Positions 6,398 to 16,568 of a DNA stretch of 21,337 nucleotides are shown piece by piece. Both the position numbers and the translations under genes were made by a program. The first letter of the stretch is position 1, and the number at the start of each line of letters is the position of its first letter. This DNA comes from Bacillota bacterium (GTDB taxonomy: Bacteria > Bacillota_A > Clostridia > Lachnospirales > Lachnospiraceae). Location: positions 1 through 21,337 of the forward strand of contig JAEZSL010000148.1 of NCBI GenBank assembly GCA_023443925.1, given 5' to 3'. Under the pieces are notes generated by a model that did not search any database, was not told the DNA's origin, and saw nothing but the letters and a program-made list of their open reading frames with translations.

Positions 6398-6578
6398 TAT
6401 CTGCTCCAAAATATAGCTGTTCCAAAATATAGCTGTTCCAAAGATATATCTGTTCCCAAAATATATCTGTTCCAAAATATATCTGCTCCAAAAATATATC
6501 TGTTTCAAAAATATATCTGTTCCAAAATATATCTGCTCAAAGATATATCTGTTTCAAAAATATATCTGTTTCAAAAAT
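6398..6578. repeat. Tandem array of about eleven 16-17-bp repeats
   Basis: Plus-strand unit TATCTGTTCCAAAATA with small variations (C/T in the TTCC part, one extra A in some copies, TAGCTG in the copies near 6414-6446). The array occupies most of the 308-base spacer between the kinase and the racemase-like gene (6318-6625). Less similar copies extend to both sides, including TTTTCCGGTTTGTAACT-type segments around 6583-6628. Read as mRNA on the operon strand, every unit carries a UUUGGAACAG-like core. Reading frames through it are made only of repeat translation and lack a ribosome binding site, so I treat it as non-coding. Confidence 0.9.
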
Positions 6579-6625
6579 GTACCTTTTCCGGTTTGTAACT
6601 ATCCCCAAAATGCACTTTTTCCGGT

Positions 6626-8053
6626 TTATTGTAACCGCTCAAATACTTCTCTAAGCGTATCCTTATTTCCCACATTTCCAGGGAAAATGATATATGGAAT
6701 ACCGGGGAATTTACTTTCTTCATCTGTTTTCCAGACCGGGATTCCCTGGCTTACCTGTCCGAGTACAAGGGCCTTCTTTACCTGTAATGCTTTCACACCT
6801 ATATCACTGGAAGTAATTCCTCCTTTGGCTATGACAAAGGCCGGCCTTACCGGCAGCCTTCCTACAAGGGCCTGTACTGCTTCTGATATCTTAACGGAAC
6901 GAAGCAGTGCTTCCTCCGGAGTATCATTTTCCAATACCAGGAGTTTGCGTTTTGTATAGACCGCTGCGGTAACTCCTGCGCTGATTTTTTTCGCGGCTTC
7001 CGTAACGATCCGTTCCACTTCACTCTCCAATTTATTGATGAGTACCAAATCAGAGTCAAATTCAAGAAAAGCGATATTATTCATGTCTTTTAAACCATTC
7101 AGCTGTTCCGTAGTTTTTGCCGTGTGGGAACCTACTACAATAAGTCCCCCGTTATTATCTTTTTTCTCGATCATTTCAGCTTTCCTTAACAATGCCTTGT
7201 CCGATATGCCGCCCATTACCTTAACAAAGGAAGCTGCAGTGCGGAAAAGAAAGTTTTTTCCTTTGTTTAAGGCTTTATAAAGTGCAAGGCAGAATACCTC
7301 CACATCCTGGTAATCCAGTGCATTTACAATGACTTTGTCAAAATGTCTGATCGTATCAAGCTGTTCTGTAATAAATTCAACATCACCGATTCTCAGGTTC
7401 TTAAGGCTTATCGAAGTTACTGACTCTGCTTTATATTCACCACCGGTTTTCTCCTCTATGTACCGGAACAGGTCTGAATTTTTATATCCAAAGGTTTTAT
7501 CTCCTGCAAATTCCGTATCCCCGGCGGGAATCAAAGTACCGCCGTAATTCACATAATGGATATTTTCTGCCGTAAAGCGTCCCCCTTCTTTAAAGAAGGG
7601 GAATATGATCTCACCGTCAATTTCCTTTCCTGTTCCATTTTCCAGAATCTCCTTTAAAACCTTCGTTTCCAAGGGATAATGCCCTCTGAGAGTGGAGTCT
7701 CCGCGGCTGATAATAAGAAACTCCAGTCCTGTCTCTTTCGAAACTTTAAGAATATTTTCAGCGATTTCGATATGGACTTTAATCGTCTGGCTTTCTGTCA
7801 GACCTCTGGAATTGGTTAACAGGTAAAATAACTTTTCCGGTGCCTCAAATCCTTTTCGAATACTATCTAAGGACCAGTCCGTATATACATAGACATCATG
7901 AACGGTCTGGACACCGGTAGGATCATCATCCAGTACAATAATTTTCTTGTTACACTTTGCCATTTCATCAGACAATAAATTTTTTATGTATTTGGTATTA
8001 AAAGAAGAATTGTCATATTCTTTTAAAATATCCGAAAGTAATCTTTGTTCCAC
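6626..8053 (-). CDS. Four-carbon acid sugar kinase family protein (DUF1537)
   Basis: This family phosphorylates acid sugars such as D-threonate, D-erythronate and 3-oxo-tetronates (OtnK/DtnK type) with ATP. The 475-residue protein has both halves: the N-terminal sugar-acid-binding domain with LDDDPTG (41-47), TNSRGLT (80-86) and SRGDSTLRGHYPLE (116-129), and the C-terminal nucleotide-binding domain with VVGSHT (306-311), AKGGITSSD (409-417) and FPGNVG (457-462). Length is typical. The start is a GTG at 8053 preceded by a strong AAAGGAGGGG. Usual partners (PdxA2-type dehydrogenase, OtnC aldolase, OtnI isomerase) are absent; here the partners are a racemase-like protein and BKACE. Its spacers on both sides are filled with tandem repeats. 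Confidence 0.9.
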   Translation of the reverse strand: MEQRLLSDILKEYDNSSFNTKYIKNLLSDEMAKCNKKIIVLDDDPTGVQTVHDVYVYTDWSLDSIRKGFEAPEKLFYLLTNSRGLTESQTIKVHIEIAENILKVSKETGLEFLIISRGDSTLRGHYPLETKVLKEILENGTGKEIDGEIIFPFFKEGGRFTAENIHYVNYGGTLIPAGDTEFAGDKTFGYKNSDLFRYIEEKTGGEYKAESVTSISLKNLRIGDVEFITEQLDTIRHFDKVIVNALDYQDVEVFCLALYKALNKGKNFLFRTAASFVKVMGGISDKALLRKAEMIEKKDNNGGLIVVGSHTAKTTEQLNGLKDMNNIAFLEFDSDLVLINKLESEVERIVTEAAKKISAGVTAAVYTKRKLLVLENDTPEEALLRSVKISEAVQALVGRLPVRPAFVIAKGGITSSDIGVKALQVKKALVLGQVSQGIPVWKTDEESKFPGIPYIIFPGNVGNKDTLREVFERLQ

Positions 8054-8071: not shown

Positions 8072-8285
8072 ACTAAAAGCTGCTATAAGTACTGACCCTT
8101 CTTTTCCATTAAAGCTGTTGTAAGTTCTGACTCTTTCTTTTCCGATATATGCTGGGTAAGTTCTGGCTCCTTCTTTCCCGATAAAAGCTGCTATAAGTTC
8201 TGGCTCCTTCTTTCCCGATGCTGGTGTAAGTACTGGCTCCTTCCTTTCCGTTAATACCACTGAAAATTCAGGTTTCTCCATCTCC
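8072..8285. repeat. Tandem array of about six 33-37-bp repeats
   Basis: Five clear copies (starting at 8072, 8108, 8144, 8180 and 8217) and a diverged sixth (8250) follow the plus-strand pattern TAAAAGCTGCTATAAGTNCTGGC then CTCCTTCTTTCC. Most are 36 bases, but one is 37 and one 33. The array lies in the 333-base spacer 8054-8386 between the GH106-like gene and the kinase gene. A frame is open through it on the minus strand and reads as 12-residue repeats, yet the unit-length changes shift the frame relative to the repeat, there is no convincing start, and both frames happen to be open, which argues against a real protein. Confidence 0.88.
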
Positions 8286-14613: not shown

Positions 14614-15420
14614 TTATTTCACCGATCCGACCATTCCCTCAACGAAGGATTTCTGTAATAAGAAAAATACGATCAGGGTCGGTATGGTTGATATGATGAT
14701 TCCCACCATAATCATACCATAGTCCGGGCTGAAATCCGCCGCCAGACCTGACACCGTCAGAGGAAGGGTAAATTTATTGTTGCTCTGTAAAGCAATGAGG
14801 GGCCACATGTAGTTATTCCAGCTTGCCATAAATGCAAAGATTCCAGCCGCTGCATAGGTGGATTTCATCATAGGCATATAGATCTTAAAAAAGATTCCGT
14901 ATTCACTTAACCCGTCTACCCTGGCTGCCTGAATGGTTTCAAGTGGGAAGGAATGGGTGTTTTGTTTAAAGAAAAAGATTAAAAACGGAGTTCCGATTGC
15001 CGGCAGTATAATTGCCAGATTGTTGTTTAACAGCTTCATCTGGGCAAACATCCGAAACATGGGGATAATTTTGGCTGCAAAAGGAACCATCATGGAGGCG
15101 ATTAAAGCCAGAAACAGAATATCTTTCCCTTTACTTGGATAGATCACAAAGGCATAGCCGGCAATGGAGCAAATAAGAAGGGATATTACTGTAATCGTAA
15201 TTGCCAGATTGGCTGAGTTTAGAAAAGCCCTCCATAAATCAGCATGTTCAAATGCATTACCGATATTCTTAAACAGGGAAGAACCAACGGTTAGTTTACC
15301 CATTGTAATATCCTTAGAGTCATTGGTCGCTCCGATGATCATCCAGATAAAAGGGAAAATAGATACCAGGGAAACAATTGTTAAAAATATATTTTTAAAC
15401 AGCAGACCTGTTTTATTCAT
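14614..15420 (-). CDS. MalG-type sugar ABC transporter permease
   Basis: This is the second membrane subunit of a CUT1 carbohydrate importer: about 268 residues with six predicted membrane segments, beginning MNKTGLLFKNIFLTIVSLVSIFPFIWMI. The EAA loop that contacts the ATPase is visible as IQAARVDGLSEYGIFFKIYMPMMK-like sequence, and the protein ends FVEGMVGSVK, typical of MalG proteins. The start is one of two neighbouring ATGs (15426 or 15420); 15420 has GGTGGAT at better spacing. Longer in-frame starts fall within the hairpin-rich spacer and would add a non-MalG leader. The start overlaps the end of a 30-codon ORF. Confidence 0.92.
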   Translation of the reverse strand: MNKTGLLFKNIFLTIVSLVSIFPFIWMIIGATNDSKDITMGKLTVGSSLFKNIGNAFEHADLWRAFLNSANLAITITVISLLICSIAGYAFVIYPSKGKDILFLALIASMMVPFAAKIIPMFRMFAQMKLLNNNLAIILPAIGTPFLIFFFKQNTHSFPLETIQAARVDGLSEYGIFFKIYMPMMKSTYAAAGIFAFMASWNNYMWPLIALQSNNKFTLPLTVSGLAADFSPDYGMIMVGIIISTIPTLIVFFLLQKSFVEGMVGSVK

Positions 15421-15505
15421 ATTCATATCCACCGTATACCGCAAGCAGGCTTGCGATACCACCACAAATATATGTGAAACAAGCTTCACAAGTTGAAAGA
15501 AGCAT
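15413..15505 (-). CDS. Putative 30-aa peptide overlapping the permease start
   Basis: ATG 15505 is preceded by AGAAAGGA with nine bases between AAGGA and the ATG. The peptide begins MLLSTCEACFTYICGG, continues with a hydrophobic IASLLAVYGG stretch and ends in YEYE. It has three cysteines and a short apolar core. The stop codon lies within the start region of the MalG gene, an arrangement that fits translational coupling. Its ribosome binding site and start codon are in the loop of a 10-12-bp stem (15490-15541). I recognise no family. It may be a real small protein, a leader peptide, or chance coding within a structured element. Confidence 0.4.
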   Translation of the reverse strand: MLLSTCEACFTYICGGIASLLAVYGGYEYE

Positions 15506-15605
15506 TACGTGGCATCCTTTCTTTTTATTTTCTTTCAACCTCGGGCATGCCGCTTTTACGGCACAAACCTTGAGAAGGCGCCTCTTAAAACCAGAGTTAT
15601 TTCTC
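15421..15605 (-). other. Hairpin-dense intergenic element between the two permease genes
   Basis: MalF and MalG genes usually abut; here about 175 bases separate them, packed with inverted repeats: GAGAA/TTCTC ends (15572-15605) with an inner CTC/GAG, TGCCG/CGGCA (15548-15563), GTTGAAAGAA/TTCTTTCAAC (15492-15501 with 15530-15539), TGTGAA/TTCACA (15473-15490) and CGCAAGC/GCTTGCG (15440-15455). The stretch looks richer in GC than the neighbouring AT-rich spacers. It could be a structured RNA regulator of the 3' permease gene or a small inserted repeat element. Confidence 0.5.
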
Positions 15606-16481
15606 ACGTTTTTCCCCTGTGATTCCTTTTTGAAGAATCGTTAAGAGAACTACCAATAAAAGCACTACATAAGAAACGGCCGCCGAATATCCGTAGCTGG
15701 GCACAAAATTAAAGGATAAATCGTAAATATACTGGGAAATCGTCCTGGTAGCATTACCGGGACCTCCGTTTGTTAAGTTTACGACCTCGTCAAATAACTG
15801 AAGCGTAGAATTTAAAGCCATAATACTGGTCAAGAATACAATGGGTTTTAACAGCGGCAGGGTAATTTTAAAGAAGCACTGAAAAAAACTGCATCCATCC
15901 ATTTTTGCTGCTTCATAAACCGAATTGTCAATATTCTGCATCGCCGATAAATAAAATATCATATAATAACCGGTATACCGCCAGATCAGTGCGATGATGA
16001 TCACAATCTTAGACCAAAACGGATCCAGTACAAAAGGAATTGCACGGTCAATGATATGAAGATGCAGTAAAAACTGATTTATTATGCCGTCAACGGCAAA
16101 CAAATTTTTAAATAAAATAGCATAGGATATGAGGGAAGTTACACAGGGCAGAAAAATACAGGTCCTGTAAATTCCTCTTAATTTTATTTTTGGATCATTT
16201 AAAAATACAGCGATTAACAGGGCTAAAAATAACATGACCGGCAGCTGTACCGCCGCATAAAGCAGGGTATTGCCTATCGTAGTCCAAAAGGTTACGTCAT
16301 TTAGCATTCGGATATAATTTGCCGCACCTGCAAAATGCAGGTTTGCCCCTTTACCCGTTTTTAAGGAAAGGATAAAGGCCTGGACCATAGGGATATAACT
16401 AAAAACAAGGACAAAAACGGAGGCCGTAATAACCATTATCCATCCTGTCTTGTAATACTTTTTCTTTTCATATCTGACCAT
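15597..16481 (-). CDS. MalF-type sugar ABC transporter permease
   Basis: First membrane subunit of the CUT1 importer, about 294 residues. It begins MVRYEKKKYYKTGWIMV and has six predicted membrane segments. The EAA loop is seen in VYEAAKMDGCSFFQCFFKI, and FDEVVNLTNGGPGNATRTIS is a near-signature MalF segment. ATG 16481 is chosen over longer in-frame starts because AGGAGG lies nine bases upstream and the longer version would read through the hairpin at 16511-16558. No ATP-binding subunit is encoded nearby; such Firmicute importers commonly borrow a shared MsmX-type ATPase (known for the class, inferred here). Confidence 0.93.
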   Translation of the reverse strand: MVRYEKKKYYKTGWIMVITASVFVLVFSYIPMVQAFILSLKTGKGANLHFAGAANYIRMLNDVTFWTTIGNTLLYAAVQLPVMLFLALLIAVFLNDPKIKLRGIYRTCIFLPCVTSLISYAILFKNLFAVDGIINQFLLHLHIIDRAIPFVLDPFWSKIVIIIALIWRYTGYYMIFYLSAMQNIDNSVYEAAKMDGCSFFQCFFKITLPLLKPIVFLTSIMALNSTLQLFDEVVNLTNGGPGNATRTISQYIYDLSFNFVPSYGYSAAVSYVVLLLVVLLTILQKGITGEKREK

Positions 16482-16510
16482 AAAAACGTTCCTCCTATAT
16501 CTTATAAAAG

Positions 16511-16558
16511 GGCTGATGCAAAAACTAATCCGTTTGAAATATAAGTTTTGCATCAGCC
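16511..16558 (-). terminator. Intercistronic hairpin between binding-protein and MalF genes
   Basis: GGCTGATGCAAAA-CT pairs with AGTTTTTGCATCAGCC (one bulged A) to give a stem of about 15 bp, followed on the minus strand by CTTTTAT. Such hairpins after solute-binding-protein genes commonly act as partial terminators or 3' stabilisers, giving more binding protein than permease. Confidence 0.65.
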
Positions 16559-16568
16559 TTATCAATTC

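Follow-up and report, generated by a model that had tools for sequence, protein, structure and literature searches.

A family of dispersed structured RNA repeats at start codons in Lachnospiraceae: candidate portable leaders for translation initiation

Bacterial dispersed repeats are usually regarded as intergenic passengers. Covarying pseudoknots near an initiation site are familiar from translational pseudoknot riboswitches and ribosomal-protein leaders, and in phage T4 gene 38 a Shine-Dalgarno (SD) sequence displaced from the AUG is thought to be restored to it by folding, in a single gene and through a simple hairpin. We know of no start-codon anchoring among the RU-type repeats of enterobacteria. 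The papers on those repeats describe intergenic, MITE-like sequences of 103-168 bp, some with ORFs (PMC2759123, PMC2229807). The pneumococcal repeats BOX, RUP and SPRITE are reported to occur in excess between convergent genes, yet the same study has 70 BOX repeats upstream of genes, compared with 16 between convergent ones (PMC3049150).

Here we analyse a spacer between two permease genes on a Lachnospiraceae contig of 21,337 nucleotides (JAEZSL010000148.1; this whole stretch is called the window). The spacer almost certainly holds a copy, inserted there, of a Lachnospiraceae family of structured RNA repeats that is dispersed over genomes and seems to be undescribed. As far as titles and abstract openings tell, no description of the family appears among the matches listed from the open-licence literature.

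The MalF-MalG spacer of the window

The minus strand of the window carries an operon that runs from a solute-binding protein through a MalF-type permease, the spacer and a MalG-type permease to a LacI-type regulator (Table 1). The MalF stop and the MalG start enclose a 176-nt spacer; a second in-frame ATG for MalG lies at 15426. An earlier note, made from the sequence alone, had drawn attention to 15413-15605, and its coordinates and features were reproduced here. Its count of five inverted repeats was fair: a repeat scan returned four, one of them an overlapping palindrome, and the predicted fold adds small hairpins at 15490-15473 and 15563-15548. The perfect 10-bp stem that it described joins 15492-15501 to 15530-15539 around a 28-nt loop containing AGAAAGGA and the ATG at 15505. 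That ATG opens the 30-codon ORF the note had reported, which reads MLLSTCEACFTYICGGIASLLAVYGGYEYE before its stop and overlaps the MalG start. A 202-nt RNA from this region has a predicted folding energy of -55.9 kcal/mol (z = -2.46; 3 of 200 shuffles equally stable), and the 135-nt element part alone is less striking (z = -2.03; 6 of 200 shuffles as good). In an Rfam 15 scan of the window, with the gathering score of each family as threshold, the sole match was a tRNA at 1628-1702, with none on the spacer.

A MalF search of genome contigs returned 30 loci, with Robinsoniella peoriensis and Blautia schinkii nearest (80-81%). Among the 15 nearer loci (L001-L014 and L025), the projected gap between the MalF stop and the MalG start runs from -14 to +35 nt, overlap being commonest, which agrees with the earlier remark that these genes normally lie a few bases apart. 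Judged from these sequences, the spacer is an insertion relative to kin and is absent from the malF-malG pair of the 15 relatives. The earlier note had held that the lack of a homologue in the same spacer of close relatives would count against its inference; the spacer of relatives does lack one, yet homologues are present at other genes.

Elsewhere in the window, a C-terminal integrase-like ORF (by eye; 1221-1646) runs into the minus-strand tRNA gene found by Rfam, as at the border of a tRNA-targeted island. At 6398-6589, between two ORFs, a unit of 16-17 bp (TATCTGTTCCAAAATA) is tandemly repeated about 11 times, and a 36-bp tandem array of about five units (8074-8249) lies within a possible 90-codon ORF adjoining the gene at 6626-8053.

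Table 1. Features of the MalF-MalG region, listed in the direction of transcription
Feature	Positions	Strand	Basis and remarks
MalF-type permease (BPD_transp_1)	15597..16482	-	Start ATG 16482, stop codon 15599-15597; domain scan used ORF 15597-16565
Spacer remainder 3' of MalF stop	15542..15596	-	Short hairpin 15563-15548
Repeat element, type A copy	15421..15541	-	nhmmer 75.5 bits; covariance model R1 88.5 bits, E 2e-15 (its training alignment included this copy); directly 5' of MalG start codon
P1 5' strand AGGTTGAAAGAA	15530..15541	-	Partner 15490-15501; covariation
Shine-Dalgarno-like AGAAAGGA, P1 loop	15515..15522	-	GAAAGGA in 54 of 63 copies; anti-SD duplex energy
Pseudoknot 5' arm TGCCAC	15509..15514	-	Covariation
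P1 3' strand TTCTTTCAACTT	15490..15501	-	Inverted repeat and covariation
30-codon ORF	15413..15505	-	Judged incidental
Extra linker hairpin TGTGAAGCTTGTTTCACA	15473..15490	-	Alignment; most copies without it; linker 24 nt against a mode of 9
Pseudoknot 3' arm GTGGTG	15460..15465	-	Pairs with TGCCAC; 2 of 6 pairs G-U
P3 hairpin TATCGCAAGC/GCTTGCGGTA	15437..15458	-	Inverted repeat and covariation
MalG start codon	15418..15420	-	Adjoins element; aligned with Robinsoniella MalG start (ATGAATAAA)
MalG-type permease (BPD_transp_1)	14614..15420	-	Start ATG 15420; domain scan begun at 15423

Copies in related genomes and their insertion sites

A nucleotide search of relatives with the spacer found many dispersed copies in related Lachnospiraceae genomes. 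Against 15 genomes, it gave at least 44 matches in Robinsoniella (G001), at least 31 in Clostridium sp. KNHs205 (G012) and at least 25 in an Anaerocolumna sp. MAG (G011), the best 40 of 82-97 first-look candidates being scored in these three; there was one match in a Herbinix sp. MAG (G010) and none in the other 11. For 101 matches we took 60 regions, preferring the better matches, and aligned 63 copies above 45 bits, the window copy included. Two continuous 400-kb blocks hold four full copies (KNHs205) and three (Robinsoniella), plus weaker pieces, a density that would extrapolate to about 55-65 copies per genome. A covariance model of the stems P1 and P3 only (R1) matched at least 15 of 299 genomes of the Lachnospiraceae family and, in a class-wide sample, at least 1 of 391, namely Robinsoniella, under strict filters and with the best 12 or 9 candidates scored per genome.

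Copies in Robinsoniella share a mean identity of 85%, rising to 98% at unrelated genes, as against about 70% with other genomes, and the nearest neighbour of each of the 24 is another Robinsoniella copy. For Anaerocolumna and KNHs205, identity is 69% both within each genome and between the two; the nearest neighbour lies in the other genome for 12 of 18 KNHs205 and 9 of 19 Anaerocolumna copies, and two more Anaerocolumna copies are nearest to Robinsoniella. Because copies of these two genomes are no closer within than between them, we place recent amplification in Robinsoniella only; the Anaerocolumna and KNHs205 copies look older and in part orthologous. The window copy is 65% identical to its nearest neighbour. 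An Rfam search of seven copy-bearing loci, with E up to 5, found no family on the element. Searches of 72,556 plasmid and 50,697 phage records with one copy (L041) came back empty, the window stretch matched no plasmid and only three short, weak stretches of phages, and MalF had no relative among viral contigs. An exact pattern search did find one viral contig (L264:341-368), where the copy is tandem and precedes an ATG. With no match for the L041 copy in these records and a single viral contig, a phage or plasmid origin was set aside.

In 60 of the 65 copies above 40 bits, the element meets a start codon (59 ATG, one TTG), and the ORF opened there has 60 codons or more. The start lies 2 nt from the element end in 37 copies, 3 nt in 13 and 0, 1 or 4 nt in 8, with an overlap of 1-2 nt in two. 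Of the remaining five, four precede a second unit in a tandem pair, and L060 is decayed. All seven full copies in the 400-kb blocks, some of them shared with the 65, lie at start codons, one a TTG, and the weaker pieces there are mixed, part at a start and part elsewhere. A Pfam scan of 20 of the 60 downstream proteins returned ArgRS, FtsY, MinC, a class-III aminotransferase, a ComEC-like protein, ABC-ATPases, permeases, TetR and LacI regulators, a methyltransferase, dehydrogenases and others, with one protein unmatched; the 20 scanned have no common function, and other gene names were assigned by eye.

Filled and empty orthologues locate the insertion. An ahpF-like gene (named by eye), 96% identical between the two genomes, reads TTTTAAGGAGGA, element, ATG in KNHs205 and TTTTAAGGAGGAATAAAAATG in Anaerocolumna, and a phosphodiesterase-like gene (95%) and a glycosidase-like gene (93%) are likewise filled in the former and empty in the latter. 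In the three pairs, the SD-AUG distance goes from 7-8 nt (empty) to about 112-114 nt (filled). The insertion point is between SD and AUG in these pairs, and the same is indicated for others. G039 and Herbinix are also empty at the ahpF-like and phosphodiesterase-like genes, and a potD-like gene is filled in Anaerocolumna, KNHs205 and G039 and empty in Herbinix. In Robinsoniella, about one and a half units occupy the smc-ftsY junction, which is empty in 13 of 13 other genomes, and the ArgRS gene is filled, compared with empty sites in 7 of 7 others. When these 39 filled or empty loci were scanned with a profile, the element turned up in the eight filled ones and nowhere else among the junctions. 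By N-terminal sequence and by eye, seven Anaerocolumna-KNHs205 pairs keep a copy at the same gene; a lipoprotein gene (L045) had no orthologue in five other genomes. We saw by eye no target-site duplication in the three pairs and no inverted repeats in the element ends (AGGTTG and TATAA), and with both absent a MITE was rejected. The dozens of copies in related genomes and the empty sites in relatives support the earlier suggestion that the operon had acquired a small mobile repeat; its other half, a hydrophobic peptide cassette, is not supported.

Conserved fold and initiation signals

The consensus fold comprises P1 (12 pairs), a pseudoknot between TGCCAC in the P1 loop and GTGGCA, and P3 (10 pairs). 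Over 63 aligned copies, 95.4% of cells are paired and the covariation score is 0.254, compared with 0.148 for shuffled alignments (0 of 500 reach the observed score) and 0.055-0.075 for slid partners. P1, P3 and the pseudoknot all covary, and this is stronger evidence for structure than either folding-energy z-score. R1 also aligned 84 matches (alignment A2), two of them antisense and several type B or odd. The pseudoknot, which is absent from R1, is paired there in 96.2% of cells where both sides have letters, compared with 16.7-62.6% for slid partners, and at most 1 of 500 shuffles reaches any of five measures; its columns have gaps in 9-10 rows. Compensated versions (AGCCAC/GTGGCT, AGCCAT/ATGGCT, TGCCAT/ATGGCA and TACCAC/GTGGTA) occur in one row each. 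Fewer than five of the six pairs form in 13 of the 84 rows. Among these are both antisense matches, units that are type B or degenerate, and three variants from G146 (L103, L116 and L127). The pseudoknot arm of these three variants stands at a greater distance from the loop SD, so the geometry of SD and pseudoknot is not fixed in every copy. By eye, G146 copies have a pseudoknot TGCCC/GGGCA elsewhere in the P1 loop, and in L103, L113, L116 and L127 the arm (TGCCC/GGGC) seems shifted within that loop.

Alternatively, the pseudoknot arm can lengthen P3 through its GCA (GCA/TGC), so two competing folds are possible; this alternative pairs 90.5% of cells (29 of 500 shuffles reach this) and its covariation score is reached by 7 of 500. 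In 59 copies, the SD-pseudoknot segment is 0 nt and the pseudoknot-P3 segment 1 nt throughout, fixed joints that are partly a product of how the alignment columns were defined. The linker (3-48 nt, mode 9), the loop before the SD (7-13 nt) and the P3-AUG segment (12-18 nt, mode 16) vary. Good conservation beyond the SD, the pseudoknot and the stems is limited to an A-rich stretch that follows P1. By eye, no aligned copy has a U-run after P3, and an intrinsic terminator was rejected on that ground. A linker that sequesters the AAUGGGUAU tail was also dropped, as linker-tail energies are no better than with shuffled tails and covariation is weak. The window copy might be decayed, being diverged, with a linker 15 nt above the mode and two G-U pseudoknot pairs. 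The remainder of its spacer may be another unit in decay; some other copies have partial units upstream.

Type A copies combine a strong SD far from the AUG with a weak one beside it. With pairing energies computed for a 12-nt anti-SD sequence, the median for the P1 loop is -10.0 kcal/mol when the window is 24 nt, with 54 of 59 copies reaching -8 or lower, and -9.3 when it is 17 nt (57 of 63), and the 17 nt beside the AUG have a median of -4.2 (3 of 59). Comparison genes from the two blocks (ORFs of at least 250 codons), which are first-ATG ORFs with unverified starts, have a median of -9.5, with 136 of 207 and 136 of 224 at or below -8. The loop SD lies directly 5' of the pseudoknot arm and 73-81 nt from the AUG in 55 of 58 copies with a recognised motif, the others being L089 (68 nt), the window copy (94 nt) and L066 (116 nt); the motif was unrecognised in 2 of 60 copies. 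The 17 nt 5' of the element reach -8 in 15 of 59 copies, compared with 4, 6 and 1 of 59 at three control offsets, and an SD pattern count agrees with the energies (24 of 63 compared with 4-14 of 63 at five control offsets). This good SD just 5' of the element is probably the leftover SD of the host gene, and it might have some other use. A start-stop (GTG TGA or ATG TGA) occurs 7 nt after the loop SD in many Robinsoniella copies and was seen in none of the Anaerocolumna and KNHs205 copies examined.

Type B units are about 79 nt long, have a short P1 loop and no pseudoknot, and are frequent in G057, G122, G278, G166 and G188. Among 54 distinct units of both types in 51 loci, 38 end at a start codon (36 ATG, 2 TTG), two are followed by another unit, two match the palindrome in antisense and 12 fall into no such class, some of the 12 with an ATG and a short ORF. 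With 12 of 54 units lacking a qualifying start, type B is anchored more loosely than type A, or its genes are shorter. The median energy of the adjacent SD is -9.2 in those type B units that have a start, 18 of 30 reaching -8 or lower, and -5.7 in type-A-like units of the same extra set (0 of 8). Thus, the adjacent SD is weak where a loop SD exists and mostly strong where it is absent. We also noted a Robinsoniella type B unit with its own SD directly before malF (L001:5936-6018), a gene that in the window has an ordinary SD and no unit; a run of three type B units spaced about 139 bp apart, with other hairpins between and the last before an ATG (L107:1027-1368); and, in Clostridium sp. KNHs205, tandem hairpin units of about 75 bp that are related to type B (L066:3245-3380).

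Possible roles and likeness to known systems

That the element affects translation initiation seems probable, and with somewhat less assurance we favour reading it as a portable translation-initiation leader in the SD-AUG gap. The element would occupy the gap between the SD of a gene and its AUG, leaving the host SD about 112-114 nt away, as in the three pairs, with a weak adjacent SD in type A. A 30S subunit would be recruited at the strong P1-loop SD; pseudoknot and P3 would bring that SD near the AUG, or it would serve as a standby site, and translation of the downstream gene, here MalG, would depend on the fold of the element. Delivery of the loop SD to the AUG through the pseudoknot is a tentative part of this model. 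The earlier idea of a cis-acting RNA controlling MalG gains support from the start-codon anchoring, the covarying pseudoknot and the displaced SD, and a structure preserved by compensatory change next to the initiation site is a feature expected of cis-regulatory RNAs. Set against the leader reading are the 13 of 84 rows with an incomplete pseudoknot, a P3-AUG distance that exceeds an ordinary SD spacer, the ability of the arm to pair into P3 instead, the divergence of the window copy with its long linker and two G-U pairs, and the 15 of 59 copies that retain a good SD just upstream. More speculative, and on balance doubtful, is a mobile cassette that would transpose specifically into the SD-AUG gap, substitute a pseudoknot-delivered SD and rewire the translation of dozens of genes, perhaps under one common signal.

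Amplification within Robinsoniella, where copies up to 98% identical stand at unrelated genes, could also point to a parasitic small mobile repeat of no benefit, tolerated mainly in the SD-AUG gap since its own initiation signal keeps the gene alive; the lack of a common function among the scanned targets and the existence of tandem and half copies fit such a parasite. We nevertheless think it unlikely, as mere tolerance predicts many copies away from start codons, whereas 60 of 65 end at one, compensatory change preserves the pseudoknot, and copies are kept at the same genes (the seven pairs recognised by eye and the potD-like gene in three genomes). A regulatory switch, be it a riboswitch, a thermometer or the target of an RNA-binding protein, would unite many genes under one signal, and the covarying pseudoknotted structure adjoining the AUG, with a GCA that can extend P3 instead, is what such a switch might look like. 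This is conceivable, but the diversity of targets (from ArgRS, FtsY and MinC to the aminotransferase, the ComEC-like and ABC proteins and the TetR and LacI regulators), the conservation of little besides SD, pseudoknot, stems and the A-rich stretch, and the poor energies and weak covariation of a stem over the AAUGGGUAU tail leave us more doubtful than persuaded.

Two further explanations fare much worse. Because start codon and frame are not kept across copies and the window peptide matches no NCBIfam or PHROG family, the leader peptide or hydrophobic peptide of the earlier note is not supported, and the 30-codon ORF is probably incidental. A broader form, in which that ORF or a longer P1 frame opening with TTG or GTG encodes a leader peptide or N-terminal extension that couples translation to the downstream gene, can draw on the overlap of the window ORF with the MalG start and on a TTG or GTG that 57 of 59 copies have at one and the same position of P1 (window 15538-15536). 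That frame stops -12 to +20 nt from the AUG in 20 of 59 copies, compared with 0 and 8 in the other two frames; 9 of 21 Robinsoniella and 2 of 18 KNHs205 copies have, past the loop SD, a start codon in frame with the gene; and, counted by copy, one frame accounts for 34 of 63 (12 of 2000 permutations as uneven). However, the P1 frame has early stops in 31 of 59 copies; the 26 distinct length combinations divide 9/9/8 among the frames, the by-copy excess coming from two length patterns (16 and 12 copies); and a start codon follows the loop SD in 20 of 21 Robinsoniella copies but in 8 of 18 from KNHs205 and 7 of 19 from Anaerocolumna, Herbinix and the window. We consider such coupling extremely unlikely; the conserved TTG or GTG and its more open frame may simply follow from the stem. 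Mobilisation by a Y1 transposase, with the repeat as a palindrome-associated derivative of an IS200/IS605-type or REP/RAYT transposon, would suit the bulged hairpins and the apparent lack of target duplication. PF01797 (Y1_Tnp) matched in four of seven genomes, above the cut-off in Robinsoniella, G039 and G278, but the many-copy genomes Anaerocolumna, G057 and G122 gave no match and KNHs205 a sub-cutoff fragment only, in assemblies whose completeness is not stated. As such a derivative also leaves the RNA-level covariation and the start-codon anchoring unexplained, we judge it very unlikely.

If the leader reading is true, a family that nearly always ends at start codons, inserts between ribosome-binding site and start, and relocates that site into a pseudoknotted loop would be a natural route for spreading translational control, and the filled and empty orthologue pairs in two near relatives make the idea directly testable. 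The element may also prove useful as a portable leader in anaerobes, and start-site annotation may be misled by a strong SD-like motif about 78 nt upstream of the real start.

Among known systems, translational pseudoknot riboswitches and ribosomal-protein leaders differ from the repeat, which has no Rfam match, scanned targets without a common function, dozens of copies per genome and insertion differences between near relatives. With T4 gene 38 it shares a displaced SD that folding would bridge; unlike that single case, it is a dispersed family with a pseudoknot. The RU-type repeats are likewise described as small, mobile and intergenic, but are enterobacterial (PMC2759123, PMC2229807). Pneumococcal BOX, RUP and SPRITE are also short, dispersed, multi-copy and strongly structured, and BOX repeats are reported to be transcribed and able to affect neighbouring genes (PMC3049150). 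Unlike those repeats, with their reported excess between convergent genes, the Lachnospiraceae repeat abuts a start codon in 60 of 65 cases and brings along an SD of its own within a pseudoknotted loop.
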